From Clostridia bacterium (GTDB lineage Bacteria > Bacillota > Clostridia > Christensenellales > CAG-314), in assembly GCA_028703495.1 (NCBI GenBank), contig JAQVMT010000003.1, forward strand, positions 1 to 64,000: DNA of 64,000 nucleotides. The letters are read 5' to 3'. Positions within the stretch are counted from its first letter, which is position 1. Each line of letters opens with the position of its first letter. The position numbers and the translations under genes were made by a program. Shown here in pieces: positions 18,445 through 36,684 of the stretch. The notes below the pieces were generated by a model that saw nothing but the letters and a program-made list of their open reading frames with translations, was not told the origin of the DNA and ran no database searches.

Positions 18445-18477
18445 CAGCCATCGATAAATTGGTATCGGTGAAGGACC

Positions 18478-18530
18478 AAGCGGGGTCGGTAATCTTGCGA
18501 AGAGCATGGATTACTGACCTCGCTTTTTTA
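18478..18530 (+). terminator. Strong intrinsic terminator
   Basis: AGCGGGGTCGGTAATC…GATTACTGACCTCGCTTTTTT. Confidence 0.85.
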
Positions 18531-28255: not shown

Positions 28256-28633
28256 TTATTGGTTGTGTGAGATAATCCAATCAAGCAGTTGTTCGTAAGA
28301 AGAACATCCTGATGCAAGTTTGAGAATCGTATCCGACAATTCCTTTTGCGAATAAGTGAGAGTAATACCATTGAGGGACAGAAAAACAAGCATTGCATGG
28401 GTTCCAATCCGTTTATTTCCATCAATAAACGGGTGGTTTTGAATTAAACCGCAAGCTAATCTTGCAGCCTTTTGGAGTAAAGACGGAAAGAGTTCAACGT
28501 TGTCAAACGTCTGGAGTGGGGCAGCCAATGCAGAATCGAGTAATCCGTCATCACGAAGGCCATCACTTCCGCCTGTTTCTTGGATAAGTTCGCTATGCAA
28601 GAAAACAATTTGTTCTTTTGAAAGATAAATCAT
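28256..28633 (-). CDS. Doc-family toxin (Fic fold)
   Basis: NHPFIDGNKRIGTHAMLVFLSLNG core motif. Confidence 0.87.
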   Translation of the reverse strand: MIYLSKEQIVFLHSELIQETGGSDGLRDDGLLDSALAAPLQTFDNVELFPSLLQKAARLACGLIQNHPFIDGNKRIGTHAMLVFLSLNGITLTYSQKELSDTILKLASGCSSYEQLLDWIISHNQ

Positions 28634-28881
28634 TTGGCTAATTCCTTGTATGCTTCACGGTTTGTTTCGATTAATTGTTTTGAAACAGCCAAAAGTGTGT
28701 CATCTGATGCCATAGACAGGTTGGAACGCTTGATTTCAAAAGGTATGCGTTGTTCGCGTACCGCTTGTTTTGCGAACATAGTAAGAGCAGTAGAAAGGTT
28801 AATACCTAAATCGGAAAACAGCTCATCTGCTTGTTTTTTAAGTTGTTCATCCATACGGATAGTAACATTAACAGTAGCCAT
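28630..28881 (-). CDS. RelB/DinJ-family antitoxin
   Basis: VNVTIRMDEQLKKQADELFSDLGINLSTALTMFAKQAVREQRIPFEI. Confidence 0.87.
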   Translation of the reverse strand: MATVNVTIRMDEQLKKQADELFSDLGINLSTALTMFAKQAVREQRIPFEIKRSNLSMASDDTLLAVSKQLIETNREAYKELAK

Positions 28882-29534: not shown

Positions 29535-30086
29535 ATGCCTACAAAATCAAATAATTTAGGCGGTCAAGGTGGGGCAAGAGTGGGTGCCGGACGCAAGAAA
29601 AAGGCTCTATCCGAGAAAATCGAAGCGGATAATCCAAGCGGAAGAAAACTCACTGTTCTTGATATCCCAGACATCGAAGGAGTGGAAATGCCAAAGCCAA
29701 ACGAAATACTTTCTGCTGCCCAGCGTGACGGGAAGGACTTTCAGGCAAAGTTAATCTTTGAGGAAACCTGGCTCTGGCTTCAGAAAATCGGATGCCAAGG
29801 CGCAGTATCCAAGCAGCTCATCGAACGATATGCCATGTGCGCTGCTCGTTGGATTCAATGCGAGCAGATGACCAATGAACTTGGTTTTCTTTCCAAGCAT
29901 CCGACAACGGGCAAGCCTATCCCGTCCCCGTTTATTAATATCGGCATCAGTTACATGAATCAAGCAATTCGGCAATGGAACGAAATATATCAAATCGTTA
30001 AGGAGAATTGCACAGCAGATTACAGCGGTGCAAATCCGCAGGACGATTTAATGGAAAAACTGCTCCGTGCCAGAAAAGGCAGCTGA
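29535..30086 (+). CDS. Phage terminase small subunit (P27-like)
   Basis: GGQGGARVGAGRKK N-terminus; AKLIFEETWLWLQKIGCQGAVSKQLIERYA; position after HNH. Confidence 0.75.
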   Translation: MPTKSNNLGGQGGARVGAGRKKKALSEKIEADNPSGRKLTVLDIPDIEGVEMPKPNEILSAAQRDGKDFQAKLIFEETWLWLQKIGCQGAVSKQLIERYAMCAARWIQCEQMTNELGFLSKHPTTGKPIPSPFINIGISYMNQAIRQWNEIYQIVKENCTADYSGANPQDDLMEKLLRARKGS

Positions 30087-30398
30087 TTACTTCTTCTTAT
30101 ACGAGTAATCTTCCGCTCCGTTAATGTATTTTGCAAAGTCGATGCGGTATATACCTTCATCGGCGCAGCCGAAAAGCATATGACCTGCCCAACCGATGTA
30201 GTTGAAGGTCATATTGTTGTTCATGGCAATGATGTCATCACGCAGTTTCTTCGGGATTTTCGAGTTGCCACTCCACAAAAAACCTTCGGCAGTGGCTTGC
30301 TTAACAAAAATATCCCATACGGCTGTGTTCGCAAAGTACAGATATACTCGGCGGTCAAGGTTCAGAAGGTTAGTTAGTGTTCTTTCATTCGATTTCAT
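30087..30398 (-). CDS. 103-aa protein of unknown function under riboswitch control
   Basis: ATG at 30398 preceded by ACGGAGGA; downstream of the S-box terminator. Confidence 0.7.
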   Translation of the reverse strand: MKSNERTLTNLLNLDRRVYLYFANTAVWDIFVKQATAEGFLWSGNSKIPKKLRDDIIAMNNNMTFNYIGWAGHMLFGCADEGIYRIDFAKYINGAEDYSYKKK

Positions 30399-30436
30399 AA
30401 AAAGAAATCCTCCGTTAAAAATTCCTACGGAGAGAT

Positions 30437-30575
30437 AAAAAACAATCCCATCGTAAACGACAGGATTGCATGGTTCAATATAAACCCCATCGTTTCAGCC
30501 TTTAGCACCTTGCCGTTTGGTAGGTTGCTGTGTGGTCGTTGGGGCTGTCCCTCGCACACTCTCTATAGGTTGAAA
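30437..30575 (-). promoter_or_regulatory. S-box / SAM-I superfamily riboswitch with intrinsic terminator
   Basis: Minus strand AGAGTGTGCGAGGGACAGCCCCAACGACCACACAGCAACC…AAGGTGCTAAAGGCTGAAACGATGGGG; P2 GTGTG/CACAC, P3 AGCAACC/GGTGCT, pseudoknot CAGCC/GGCTG; terminator AATCCTGTCG-TTTA-CGATGGGATT-GTTTTTT. Confidence 0.88.
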
Positions 30576-30577
30576 TA

Positions 30578-30606
30578 ATTGTAGCACAGGACAATTGATT
30601 TGTCAA
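30578..30606 (-). promoter_or_regulatory. Promoter of the riboswitch transcript
   Basis: TTGACA (30606-30601), 17-bp spacer, TACAAT (30583-30578). Confidence 0.82.
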
Positions 30607-30629: not shown

Positions 30630-31412
30630 ATGTATGAAAAAGTAAACCCTTGCCATCCCGACAAGATTGCCGACAGAATTGCCGGAGCGATTGTGGATTT
30701 GGCATACAAAAAGGAAAACAGTCCAAAGGTCGCTGTGGAGGTTTTAATCGGACACGGCACGTGCCACATTATTGTGGAAACTTCCGTTTGCAATGACATA
30801 GGCGAGATTGAATCAATCGTGCATAGAATTGCCGGGGACGTTGCTGTTGACTATGTTGAAGTTCCTCAAGACGTATTTCTTGCAGAAAATCAGAGTCAAG
30901 AAATCCGCTGCGGAGATAACGGTATCTTTAAAGGTATGCCACTCACGGCAGAGCAAAAGACACTCTCTCAAACGGCGCGAGATATTTTCGGTAAGTACAG
31001 ATGCGACGGAAAATACATTGCCGACGGCGAACGTTTGATTATCTGCCAGAGCAACGCAAGAACGGAAGATTTGAAAGCGGAATATCCGACGGCAGAAATT
31101 AATCCTATCGGTGATTGGCTCGGTGGAACGGACGTCGATACGGGAGCTACGAATAGGAAGCTCGGTTCGGATATGGCAGACAGCGTAACAGGCGGCGGAC
31201 TGCATGGTAAAGACCTTTCAAAGGCAGATGTCAGCGTAAATATTTACGCTTGGATAAAAGCTCAGAGAACAAGACAGCCTGTGGAATTCTGTTGTGCAAT
31301 CGGCGACAAAACAATCGACGGGAAACCTTACGGAGAAATCGTAGAAATTGCTCGTGAGTTTGTCCGGCAGCAGGGCGGATTTGAGAAATTTGCCGAGTGG
31401 GGATTGTTTTAA
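30630..31412 (+). CDS. metK: Compact S-adenosylmethionine synthetase homologue (260 aa)
   Basis: CHPDKIADRIAGAIVD; CGDNGIFKGMPLT; DTGATNRKLGSDMADSVTGGGLHGKDLSKADVSVNIYAW. Confidence 0.85.
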   Translation: MYEKVNPCHPDKIADRIAGAIVDLAYKKENSPKVAVEVLIGHGTCHIIVETSVCNDIGEIESIVHRIAGDVAVDYVEVPQDVFLAENQSQEIRCGDNGIFKGMPLTAEQKTLSQTARDIFGKYRCDGKYIADGERLIICQSNARTEDLKAEYPTAEINPIGDWLGGTDVDTGATNRKLGSDMADSVTGGGLHGKDLSKADVSVNIYAWIKAQRTRQPVEFCCAIGDKTIDGKPYGEIVEIAREFVRQQGGFEKFAEWGLF

Positions 31413-32369: not shown

Positions 32370-32440
32370 ATACTGAAGGTTCATTTGAGACCGTCCTTAT
32401 TACAAAGGGCGGTTTTTTTATGCCCTTTTTTGGAGGAAAA

Positions 32441-33700
32441 ATGTCGAGAACAACAACTCAAATGGAATTGGTGCCTATTGCAAAGTTGGTGCCGTATATA
32501 AATAATGCCCGAACACACTCGGTGGAACAGATAAACAAACTGCGTTCATCACTTCGTGAGTTTGGGTTTATTAATCCCGTCATTATCGATAAAGATTTCG
32601 GGATTATTGCCGGACACGGCAGAGTCATTGCGGCGCGGGAAGAGGGTATAGAAAAAGTGCCGTGCGTCTTTGTGGATTATCTGACCGAGGCACAAAAGAA
32701 AGCATATATTCTTGCGGATAACCGTATGGCTTTGGATGCCGGATGGGACGAAGAATTGTTAAAGGTTGAAATAGAAGCATTGCGAGGCGAGGCTTTCGAT
32801 ATCGGGTTGACGGGTTTTGACGAAAAAGAACTGTCAGACCTATTCAAAGATACAGACACCGATGTAAAAGATGACGATTATGATTTGACAACCGCTCTTG
32901 AAAAAGCGTCTTTCGTGGAAAGGGGCGATGTTTGGGTGGTAGGAAGGCATAGGCTAATGTGCGGAGACGCGACTAATCCCGACGACGTCAAAACGCTAAT
33001 GGACGGGAAACGTGCAAACCTAATATTGACAGACCCTCCGTATGGTGTTTCTTTCAAGAGTTCAAGCGGACTGACGATTCAAAACGACAGTATAAAGGAC
33101 GATGAGTTTTACAATTTTCTATATGCTGCCTTCAAAAATATGGTCGACTGTTTGGAGCCTGGCGGAAGTGCCTACGTCTTTCACGCAGATACGGAAGGAC
33201 TCAATTTTCGCAAAGCCTTTATAGCTGCGGGACTGCATTTGGCGGGTTGCTGTATTTGGGTAAAGAACAGCCTGGTTCTTGGACGGTCGGATTATCAGTG
33301 GCAGCACGAGCCTATTCTATACGGTTTTCTGCAGAACGGTAAGCACAACTGGTATTCGGACAGAAAGCAGACTACCATTTGGAATTTTGACAAGCCGAAA
33401 CGCAACGAAAATCATCCAACGAGTAAACCGCTTGACCTCTTGGGGTATCCGCTAAAAAACTCGTCGCAGGAAAATTCAATTGTACTCGATACATTTGGCG
33501 GAAGCGGTTCAACGCTTATGGCGGCGGACCAGGCAAACCGAATCTGTTACACGATGGAACTCGATGAAAAATATGCTTCGGTTATCCTTCGTAGGTATGT
33601 TGACGGAACGGGTGATTCGGAAAACGTGTATGTTGTTCGAAACGGCGAAAAAATCATGTACTCGGATATCGTCAAGGAAGTAGAAACAGCAAATGGATAA
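32441..33700 (+). CDS. ParB-domain N6-adenine/N4-cytosine DNA methyltransferase
   Basis: ParB-like IAGHGRVIAAREEG; ILTDPPYGVSF; DTFGGSGSTLMAA; ATG after TGGAGG. Confidence 0.88.
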   Translation: MSRTTTQMELVPIAKLVPYINNARTHSVEQINKLRSSLREFGFINPVIIDKDFGIIAGHGRVIAAREEGIEKVPCVFVDYLTEAQKKAYILADNRMALDAGWDEELLKVEIEALRGEAFDIGLTGFDEKELSDLFKDTDTDVKDDDYDLTTALEKASFVERGDVWVVGRHRLMCGDATNPDDVKTLMDGKRANLILTDPPYGVSFKSSSGLTIQNDSIKDDEFYNFLYAAFKNMVDCLEPGGSAYVFHADTEGLNFRKAFIAAGLHLAGCCIWVKNSLVLGRSDYQWQHEPILYGFLQNGKHNWYSDRKQTTIWNFDKPKRNENHPTSKPLDLLGYPLKNSSQENSIVLDTFGGSGSTLMAADQANRICYTMELDEKYASVILRRYVDGTGDSENVYVVRNGEKIMYSDIVKEVETANG

Positions 33701-34499
33701 ACAGGAATATCATGTAGTGTCTTTCTCCGGCGGAAAGGATTCCACGGCTATGCTACTCAAAATGCTCGAACTGGGTATGAAAGTTGATTGTATTCTTTTC
33801 TGTGATACAGGTTTGGAGTTCCCAGATATGTACACGCATATTGAGCAGGTCGAAAAACACATAAATCGTAAGATTACGATAGTCAAGGCAAAGGAAGATT
33901 ATGAGTATCTTATGCTTGAAAAGCCGATAAAACGCAAGCAAGAAGCACAGCTCACTTTGCGTTACGGATTTCAACCTAAAGGTTACGGATGGGCGGGACC
34001 GAAGATGCGGTGGTGTACGGAAAAGTTAAAATCTCAACCGAGGGAACGATTCTTGCGCGAACTAAGAAAGGAGTATGACATAATCGAGTATGTCGGACTT
34101 GCGGCAGATGAAGGGTATAGGCTTAAAAGGCTCGTTAACCAACGTGAGAATCACAGGCATCCTTTAATTGACTGGGAAATGACCGAAGCCGATTGTTTGC
34201 AGTTTTGTTACGAAAGAGGATTTACTTGGAACGGTTTATACAAGTATTTTGATAGGGTTAGCTGTTGGTGCTGTCCTCTGCAAAGCCTAACGGATTTGCG
34301 AATACTATATAAGCACTTTCCTGACCTTTGGGCAAAGCTCAAAGAATGGGATGATAAAACCTGGCGGGATTTCAAAACAGATTACAGTGTAGCAAAGCTT
34401 GCTGCAAGGTTTGATTTAGAAGAAGAATTTATAAGAGACGGAAGACCCATTAACAATAGGGTCTTTTTTGATGCTCTAAAGGAGCGAATGAATGGATAA
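33693..34499 (+). CDS. PP-loop / PAPS reductase-like protein
   Basis: SFSGGKDSTAMLLKMLELG; CWCC motif. Confidence 0.82.
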   Translation: MDKQEYHVVSFSGGKDSTAMLLKMLELGMKVDCILFCDTGLEFPDMYTHIEQVEKHINRKITIVKAKEDYEYLMLEKPIKRKQEAQLTLRYGFQPKGYGWAGPKMRWCTEKLKSQPRERFLRELRKEYDIIEYVGLAADEGYRLKRLVNQRENHRHPLIDWEMTEADCLQFCYERGFTWNGLYKYFDRVSCWCCPLQSLTDLRILYKHFPDLWAKLKEWDDKTWRDFKTDYSVAKLAARFDLEEEFIRDGRPINNRVFFDALKERMNG

Positions 34500-36684
34500 A
34501 AAACAACTAACGCTCGGCAGTCTGTTTGACGGGTCGGGCGGTTTTCCGCTTGGCGGTATTCTCTCCGGCATCACTCCCAAGTGGGCATCGGAGATAGAAC
34601 CGTTTGCAATTAGGGTAACAACGAAAAGAATGCCGTTTGTAAAACACTACGGCGACATTAGCGAAATGGACGGCGCAACGGTTGAGCCTGTTGACATCAT
34701 AACCTTCGGTTCGCCTTGCCAGGATATGAGTGTGGCGGGAAAGCGGAGCGGACTTGACGGAAGCAGGTCGAGCTTATTTTACGAAGCCGTCAGAATAATA
34801 AAGGAAATGAGGAGAGCAACTAATGGAAAATATCCAAGATATATCGTCTGGGAAAACGTGCCGGGAGCATTCTCAAGCAACAACGGTCAAGACTTCAAAG
34901 CGGTCCTTGACTCGCTCATCGGTATCGTTGAAGCGGATGCCGAGGTGCCTATGCCTGAAAAAGACGAATGGCCATATGCAGACTGCTACGTGGGAGACGG
35001 ATGGAGTCTTGCGTACAGAGTTTTTGACGCTCAATACTGGGGAGTTCCCCAGCGTCGTCGCAGAATCTACCTTGTCGCAGATTTTGCAGGTAGGTGTGCC
35101 GGAGACATACTATTTAAGTCCGAGGGCTTGTCAGGGTATTCTTCGGAGAGCTTCCGTTCGTGGCAAAGAACTGCCGATGATACTCAAAGCGGCACTTTTG
35201 AAACAGGCTTCGGCTTTGACGGTTACAACGGAGCAGTAGATGCAAAAGCGGCAACGCTCGGTGTGAACTGCGGAATATCATCCGGGCGAAACGGAGTTGT
35301 CCTGAACGACCAGGGTGGCAACCGTATGGACGTAACGGAAGAGGTAACAAGTACACTTCGAGCCGAGGCACATCATCCACCATGCGTCTTGGAAGCTGCC
35401 GGATTCTGTACCGAACATTCGGCAAAGAGCAGAAGCATCGGCTACGAAGAAGAAACATCACCGACTCTCCGTGCGGGGGTTGTTCCCGCTGCTGTTGCAG
35501 TGGAGAATCATCCTACTGACGGACGGGTGAAAATACAAAAGGACGATAAAGTTCAAACATTGACTTCACGTATGGGAACGGGCGGGATGAATGTTCCGCT
35601 TGTGCTTAAAATTCGTAGCGGTTGTGAGGGTGGTGGTAAGGGTGCGCTTATCCAAAAAGACAAATCTGCTACGCTTTCTTGCAACAACGACCAAACATTG
35701 TTTGAGCCGAGTAGTTGGGATGGAAGTCAAGTCGCTCCTACACTGACAAAGCAGAATGCGGGCGGAAACCAAAGGATGCCTGACAAAGATAATTTCAATT
35801 GCGTATTAGAGCCTTTCGGAATATCGGCAAAGGACAGCAACGCAATGAAGTCGTCCAATCCGAGAAGCGGCATATATAAGGCAAAGACGTCGAGAACGGT
35901 TGACACGAGCGGAGGAAATCCCGCTTGCAATCAAGGCGGTATCGCTGTAGTTTGCGTAGACCAAGGCGGCGGAAAGTCAGGCTGCAACATTTCTGTTGAA
36001 CAAACTCCGACATTGACTTGTACTCACGGCGGTGAACCCGCAATCTGCATTCAAGGTTCTATGATTGGACGGAAAGATGAAAACGGACCGCAAGGTAATG
36101 GCATCAATGAAGATAAGTCTTTTACACTCAATGCCACCGACAGACACGCTGTGTATGCTATGACGACAGGCAGCTTTCAGCAAGTGGAAGAGGACAAATC
36201 TCCGACGCTTATGGCACGGGATTATAAAGACCCGAATGCTGTGTGTTACGGAATCGGCAGAGATACGTTTAACCAGGGGAAAAACGCAAAGTTCGCTCCC
36301 TCGTTTAAGGAAGAGTGTCAGCCGACCTTAGTTGCAAAAGGTCCCGGCGCAGTCTTGAACTCGGCAGAAGCACAGTATACAGTCAGGCGGTTGACTCCAA
36401 CCGAATGTGCGAGACTGCAAGGCTTCCCTGATTGGTGGTGCAAGAGCCTCGGAACAGAAAAGCCAACTGATGAAGAAGTATATTTTTGGTACAAGGTATT
36501 TGAAAAGCATAGAAAAATTACGGGGGTAGGAAAAGCGAAGACGGATAAACAAATTCGAAACTGGCTCTTAAGTCCTCACTCGGATTCGGCAGAATATAAA
36601 CTCTGGGGAAACGGTGTCGCTCTGCCTTGCGTATTGTTCGTGCTTTTCGGGATTGTTTGGGCGAATGCAAAGAATGAAAAGTAA
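34492..36684 (+). CDS. C5-cytosine DNA methyltransferase with expanded target-recognition-like region
   Basis: GSLFDGSGGFPLGG, FGSPCQDMSVAGKRSG, VWENVPGAFSSN, C-terminal LTPTECARLQGFPDWW. Confidence 0.9.
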   Translation: MDKKQLTLGSLFDGSGGFPLGGILSGITPKWASEIEPFAIRVTTKRMPFVKHYGDISEMDGATVEPVDIITFGSPCQDMSVAGKRSGLDGSRSSLFYEAVRIIKEMRRATNGKYPRYIVWENVPGAFSSNNGQDFKAVLDSLIGIVEADAEVPMPEKDEWPYADCYVGDGWSLAYRVFDAQYWGVPQRRRRIYLVADFAGRCAGDILFKSEGLSGYSSESFRSWQRTADDTQSGTFETGFGFDGYNGAVDAKAATLGVNCGISSGRNGVVLNDQGGNRMDVTEEVTSTLRAEAHHPPCVLEAAGFCTEHSAKSRSIGYEEETSPTLRAGVVPAAVAVENHPTDGRVKIQKDDKVQTLTSRMGTGGMNVPLVLKIRSGCEGGGKGALIQKDKSATLSCNNDQTLFEPSSWDGSQVAPTLTKQNAGGNQRMPDKDNFNCVLEPFGISAKDSNAMKSSNPRSGIYKAKTSRTVDTSGGNPACNQGGIAVVCVDQGGGKSGCNISVEQTPTLTCTHGGEPAICIQGSMIGRKDENGPQGNGINEDKSFTLNATDRHAVYAMTTGSFQQVEEDKSPTLMARDYKDPNAVCYGIGRDTFNQGKNAKFAPSFKEECQPTLVAKGPGAVLNSAEAQYTVRRLTPTECARLQGFPDWWCKSLGTEKPTDEEVYFWYKVFEKHRKITGVGKAKTDKQIRNWLLSPHSDSAEYKLWGNGVALPCVLFVLFGIVWANAKNEK

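Follow-up and report, generated by a model that had tools for sequence, protein, structure and literature searches.

In textbooks, S-box riboswitches appear as elements that regulate the methionine and SAM genes of the host. The locus described here raises the question of what such an element controls inside a prophage, and to which type of SAM riboswitch it belongs. It lies on the minus strand of a 64,000-nt stretch of a Clostridia bacterium genome, hereafter referred to as the window (Table 1). An initial annotation, made from the letters of this stretch, had described it as an S-box in front of a 103-aa gene of unknown function. The promoter, aptamer, terminator and 103-aa ORF were all recovered at the coordinates given there. 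The promoter is of the sigma-70 type with a TG preceding the -10 element; the consensus scan returns about four chance sites per 2.3 kb, and the promoter is supported mainly by its position. In the host assembly (2.17 Mb, 92.8% complete), the prophage copy is the only S-box detected by a search with RF00162 (E 6.1e-12).

Table 1 Coordinates of the riboswitch, its surroundings and selected genes behind related leaders. Positions refer to the window unless a locus or contig is named
Feature	Position	Strand	Evidence or remark
Source DNA (the window), Clostridia bacterium	GCA_028703495.1, contig JAQVMT010000003.1, positions 1 to 64,000	forward	64,000 nt
Sigma-70-type promoter TTGACA-17-TACAAT	30578..30606	-	consensus scan, 11/12
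SAM-I (S-box) aptamer without P4	30484..30571	-	RF00162, 54.6 bits; own model R1, 90.5 bits; covariation in 28 leaders
P1	30569-30565/30490-30486	-	aptamer helix
P2a	30559-30555/30534-30530	-	aptamer helix
P3	30529-30519/30514-30504	-	aptamer helix
Pseudoknot PK-1	CAGC 30547-30544 (P2 loop) with GCTG 30499-30496	-	covariation
CGATGGGG, common to P1 3' strand and antiterminator	30485..30492	-	covariation, staged folding
Intrinsic terminator GCAATCCTGTCG-TTTA-CGATGGGATTGT, then T run	30436..30469 (stem 30469-30442)	-	scan, covariation, folding
Second hairpin, pairs Shine-Dalgarno GGAGG (30413-30409)	30407..30436	-	folding, leader comparison
103-aa protein, uncatalogued family	30087..30398 (ATG at 30398)	-	ORF, family searches; sole gene under the switch
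Terminase small subunit (TerS)	29535..30086	+	phrog_83, E 1.2e-29; convergent with the 103-aa gene
Short phage SAM synthetase (MetK)	30630..31412	+	PF00438, E 4.9e-11; phrog_1569, E 1e-68; divergent from the switch
ParB-N6/N4 DNA methyltransferase, phage	32420..33700	+	PF01555, phrog_498
PAPS-reductase-like protein, phage methylation cluster	33693-34499	+	phrog_424
C5-cytosine DNA methyltransferase, phage	34492..36684	+	PF00145, E 5.4e-42
RelB-like antitoxin and Doc/Fic toxin pair	28256-28881	-
gut-2 RNA	18446-18493	+	RF02990, 57.6 bits
Host metK	G000:C6:34981-35391	-	separate contig
N-formylglutamate amidohydrolase behind P4-less S-box	L096:669-1484	-	PF05013
N-formylglutamate amidohydrolase behind P4-less S-box	L108:1671-2420	+	PF05013
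N-formylglutamate amidohydrolase behind P4-less S-box	L100:1655-1936	+	PF05013, just under cut-off
ADP-ribosylglycohydrolase with SseB-like C-terminal domain behind P4-less S-box	L098:1669-3027	+

The assignment to the S-box family is borne out by the RF00162 score, which exceeds the gathering score of 44.4 bits (E 7.8e-10 in the window search) and is the best of all models of the clan for this aptamer. An Rfam match to mir-19 lies under its own gathering score and was rejected as chance. For the comparative analysis, 28 leaders were aligned, including one whose protein homology is tentative (L039) and two that were added by resemblance only (L070 and L071). Across P1, P2, P3 and PK-1, 97.3% of the cells are paired and nine pairs are changed on both sides; the covariation of 0.194, compared to 0.117 after shuffling, was reached in 0/500 shuffles, and neither shuffles nor register shifts came close. 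The pseudoknot between the P2 loop and the segment behind P3, already proposed in the initial annotation, is paired in 100% of the cells with both sides changed in two of its four pairs. It occurs mostly as CAAG/CUUG across the leader class, besides CAGC/GCUG (the form of the window) and CAGA/UCUG. The SAM-contacting positions, taken from PMC6890682 with the numbering transferred by eye, are almost invariant across the 28-leader alignment, and the window has them intact; exceptions are SAM-I position 45, which is G in three leaders, position 59, which is G in one, and the variable position 8.

None of the 28 leaders contains a P4 helix between PK-1 and P1. For the window, the initial annotation had already found no obvious P4; the PK-1 strand and P1 are separated by 5 nt there and by 4 nt in each of the remaining 27. 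The accompanying suggestion of a SAM-I/IV-type variant was not upheld. SAM-I/IV shares the SAM-binding core, but has P4 and lacks PK-1 (PMC6890682), which is the opposite of the pattern found here. SAM-IV resembles the leaders in lacking P4 and having PK-1, but it adds P5 and PK-2 beyond P1, and its P2 contains a turn of four nucleotides (PMC6890682). In the aligned leaders, no conserved counterpart of P5 or PK-2 is present, and P1 is followed by the terminator after a spacer of varying length that contains no conserved hairpin. The RNA is therefore closest to SAM-I minus P4. Shared with SAM-I (RF00162) are P1, P2 with the kink-turn position, P3, PK-1, the pocket nucleotides, the antiterminator/terminator arrangement and the promoter-proximal position of the leader. 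The differences are the 4-5 nt in place of P4, the predominance of CAAG/CUUG in PK-1, a second hairpin over the Shine-Dalgarno sequence and the target, which in phages and chromosomes alike is a small protein of no catalogued family and not a methionine gene. The leaders make up one subtype, with the SAM pocket, kink-turn position and pseudoknot of SAM-I and without P4. Judged from the alignment, the leader is a P4-less variant of SAM-I and not canonical SAM-I. P4 aids the folding of SAM-I, and its loss could reduce SAM affinity; the P4-less leader offers a natural test of SAM-I function without this helix.

Downstream of the aptamer, the 5' arm of the terminator also serves as the partner of the antiterminator, and three strands compete, namely the 3' strand of P1 and the two arms of the terminator. 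In the leader alignment, the antiterminator is paired in 95.9% of the cells with a covariation of 0.251 vs 0.196 (1/500) and the terminator in 94.0% with 0.367 vs 0.197 (0/500). The covariation of the antiterminator is the weakest among aptamer, antiterminator and terminator, as one of its strands must also fit P1 and the terminator. For the window leader, the minimum-free-energy fold of a transcript that stops before the terminator 3' arm is the antiterminator, and that of the full leader is the terminator; covariation and staged folding agree that the two structures are mutually exclusive. The 13-bp antiterminator of the initial annotation is particular to the window copy; the conserved core comprises 7 pairs.

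The covariation and folding of antiterminator and terminator point to an attenuation platform that is predicted to be OFF at high SAM, in line with the earlier proposal. Both SAM as the ligand and this direction are inferred from the way S-boxes are known to work. Ample SAM would bind the P1/P3 pocket and hold the P1 3' strand, so that the terminator 5' arm (AAUCCUGUCG) would be free to form the terminator stem with the 3' arm and transcription would stop. At low SAM, the 3' strand of P1 (CGAUGGGG) would instead engage the terminator 5' arm, no terminator would form and the 103-aa gene would be transcribed. The second hairpin, which directly follows the U run of the terminator, would then still mask the Shine-Dalgarno sequence and lower expression even at low SAM, leaving the gene doubly restrained. 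Of the 27 family leaders that could be measured, 26 have the Shine-Dalgarno sequence paired in this hairpin; the same measure gives 14 of 27 for S-box leaders of metK in the host family. Most leaders of the class with unrelated cargo have the second hairpin too, so that it goes with the leader rather than with the protein behind it. Its loop contains GGAA in 15 of the 28 family leaders (UAGGAA, GUGGAA; positions 30413-30436 (-) in the window) and in some leaders with unrelated cargo.

The gene under this control, described in the initial annotation as of unknown function, encodes a protein of an uncatalogued family. Searches with up to 21 members against Pfam, NCBIfam, PHROGs and PADLOC gave no consistent match, and no sequence match was found in the PDB. 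PglZ and Cas7 were each matched by one member at chance level and were not used. Two copies were modelled with AlphaFold, that of the window (pLDDT 82.6) and that of Caproiciproducens (pLDDT 90.0), and both models show an alpha/beta fold. A Foldseek search of both against the PDB yielded no fold match; against predicted structures of viruses, the search led at best (E 4.5e-3) to unnamed small phage proteins, which serve as a lead only. A dN/dS of about 0.06-0.2 in relatives indicates purifying selection and, with dN at roughly 6-20% of dS, a real protein gene. Homologues were collected by protein-only searches, which added 33 loci to that of the window, down to about 25% identity and a weakest E of 3.6e-5; L002 was dropped because its match covers only 12 residues. 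They come from a Ruminococcus phage (PV036439.1), viral contigs, Caproiciproducens, Ruminococcus, Oscillospiraceae and other Clostridia genomes. No homologue was found in the plasmid collection, and 399 genomes sampled across the phylum gave no match outside the class Clostridia. Although the window copy is located in a prophage, the label "phage gene" fits only in part, since some homologues with the same leader are found among ordinary chromosomal genes.

Whether the homologues always carry S-boxes in phages had been raised as a question by the initial annotation. An RF00162 match above threshold is present just upstream and on the same strand at all 34 loci chosen by protein alone, though not only in phages; many of these loci are related, and they represent 26 distinct leaders and not 34 independent events. 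Literature searches of partial coverage found no report of this pairing. In the reverse direction, a covariance model of the P4-less aptamer built here (R1) was searched against 392 Clostridia genomes and gave 23 matches at 75.9-103.5 bits, followed by a gap to 64.9 bits and below. Six of the 23 precede members known from the protein search, and the cargo of two more (L094 and L101) looks like distant family members. Behind others of the 23, metK (L102 and L111), an ADP-ribosylglycohydrolase (L098) and small uncatalogued proteins (L091, L093, L099, L105, L106, L107, L109 and L110) are encoded. N-formylglutamate amidohydrolase, likewise found behind matches of this group (L096, L108 and, weakly, L100), is an unexpected target of a SAM switch. 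Two separate small orphan families of about 100-117 aa are found behind S-boxes, one in L106 and L109 (59% identical) and one in L112-L114 (68-78%). In viral contigs, the exact leader pattern occurs in 34 stretches, of which 22 encode the 103-aa family, six metK and five other small orphans, with one ambiguous case; in the human gut phage MT835503.1, the same leader precedes another small protein. Within the sample, the protein is accompanied by the switch without exception, and the relation of switch to protein is one-to-many. Leader architecture, covariation and the obligate pairing with the protein family are in this way shown by comparison of the loci.

Protein family searches of the region confirmed the prophage location. 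The switch is surrounded by a complete temperate siphovirus with genes for DNA polymerase, primase/helicase, small and large terminase subunits, portal, major head protein, tape measure and tail proteins. The toxin-antitoxin pair listed in Table 1 accounts for the other minus-strand genes of this prophage section, and the gut-2 RNA is an sRNA among the replication genes. The phage metK gene starts 59 bp from the switch and is followed on the plus strand by a 227-aa ORF without assignment, the ParB-N6/N4 methyltransferase, the PAPS-reductase-like protein and the C5 methyltransferase. With phage MetK and DNA methyltransferases as neighbours, the 103-aa gene is placed within a SAM-making and SAM-consuming module. 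Phage MetK comprises only 260 aa; Pfam detects the N-terminal domain alone, PHROG family 1569 spans the whole protein, and relatives adjoin DNA methyltransferases in other phages. Homologues of the PAPS-reductase-like protein were found close to terminase in L012, L034 and L142. In the stretch examined around the host metK, neither an S-box nor a match to any other Rfam family was detected. Most host relatives in the family have a P4-containing S-box on metK. These score 39-56 bits with R1, compared to 76-107 bits for the P4-less class, so that the P4-less leader is not one recently copied from a host metK gene.

At 19 phage loci other than that of the window, the gene and a C5 DNA methyltransferase gene are neighbours on opposite strands, mostly end to end; most of these loci also contain N6 methyltransferase and terminase genes, and about half contain MetK. 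This synteny supports a tie to phage DNA methylation. A methylation-specific role is weakened by the chromosomal and some other copies that have no methylation genes nearby.

Taken together, the locus is most probably a compact P4-less OFF switch of the SAM-I clan that allows a small effector to be made at low SAM, as judged from the compared leaders and their genes. One alternative places the main output in the transcript itself, which at low SAM would run antisense into the convergent gene and lower its expression, the target being the C5 DNA methyltransferase in most phages and TerS in the window. Such an effect would fit the arrangement in the 19 phage loci as well as the window, where the 103-aa gene and TerS meet stop codon to stop codon (30087/30086) and the terminator scan found no minus-strand terminator between the two genes. 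There is also a precedent in Clostridium acetobutylicum, in which an antisense-acting S-box transcript is convergent with the neighbouring ubiG-mccBA operon (PMC9943018); here, in contrast, the switch is immediately followed by a conserved ORF. Purifying selection on this ORF, its conservation as a protein and the persistence of the leader-protein pair where the neighbour is no methyltransferase make antisense action unlikely as the main output, and it could be an addition to the protein. It is similarly doubtful that the gene encodes a toxic or abortive-infection effector, silenced by the terminator and the hidden Shine-Dalgarno sequence and freed by SAM depletion, for instance through an incoming phage with a SAM-degrading enzyme. 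Phages with SAM lyases are known (PMC7877911, PMC8406200), and the double restraint in almost all leaders, the rapidly diverging small proteins, homologous or not, behind the same leader, and the solitary, antisense, self-promoted gene in the prophage would all agree with this role. However, similarity to PADLOC defence families is limited to chance-level single matches, the same leader precedes the non-toxins metK and N-formylglutamate amidohydrolase, and S-boxes equally report ordinary methionine starvation.

The ligand itself could be questioned, given that P4 is missing in 28 of 28 leaders and most of the cargo is unrelated to methionine metabolism. Another ligand, or a loss of binding, is nevertheless very improbable: the pocket positions are intact, the P4-less leader precedes metK at two Clostridia loci and in the six viral contigs, and SAM-IV still binds SAM without P4 (PMC6890682). 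A captured or decaying host metK leader without function in the phage might be suspected from the nearby divergent phage metK and from the S-boxes on metK in host relatives. Since metK leaders in the host family are of a different subtype and the present one is intact with covariation in 34 of 34 loci alongside a conserved protein, this reading is contradicted by the conservation data and hardly tenable.

For the preferred reading, a low-SAM switch with a protein product, the 103-aa family is probably a dedicated response to SAM running out. As the family has no annotated relative and no fold match among solved structures, the effector role rests on gene neighbourhood. Tentatively, the phage protein may be a small effector that deals with a lack of SAM at or near the SAM-consuming DNA-methylation module of the phage, for example by modulating a methyltransferase or by protecting under-methylated phage DNA. 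In more general terms, it may help the phage or its host to withstand low SAM or to make use of it. A ligand-sensing riboswitch of bacterial type is also kept in other Clostridia prophages, phiCD630-1/2 of Clostridioides difficile, where c-di-GMP riboswitches control a type I antitoxin RNA (PMC11477304); the present switch differs in ligand class and in having a conserved protein as output. It is possible, though short of probable, that the P4-less S-box represents a distinct, horizontally moving class of SAM switch in Clostridia and their phages. It would act as an exchangeable SAM-starvation cassette, in which one conserved leader made up of aptamer, terminator and Shine-Dalgarno hairpin precedes many small proteins that are unrelated and diverge fast, and which phages use to sense or exploit SAM depletion in phage-host or phage-phage conflict.

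In the sampled loci, one S-box subtype goes without exception with a protein family not described in any database, both in chromosomes and in phages, where it adjoins their own SAM synthetase and DNA methyltransferases. This gives a handle on how phages track SAM, a metabolite contested by restriction, DNA methylation and phage SAM-degrading enzymes, and on a small-protein family whose function can be sought under one defined condition, low SAM.
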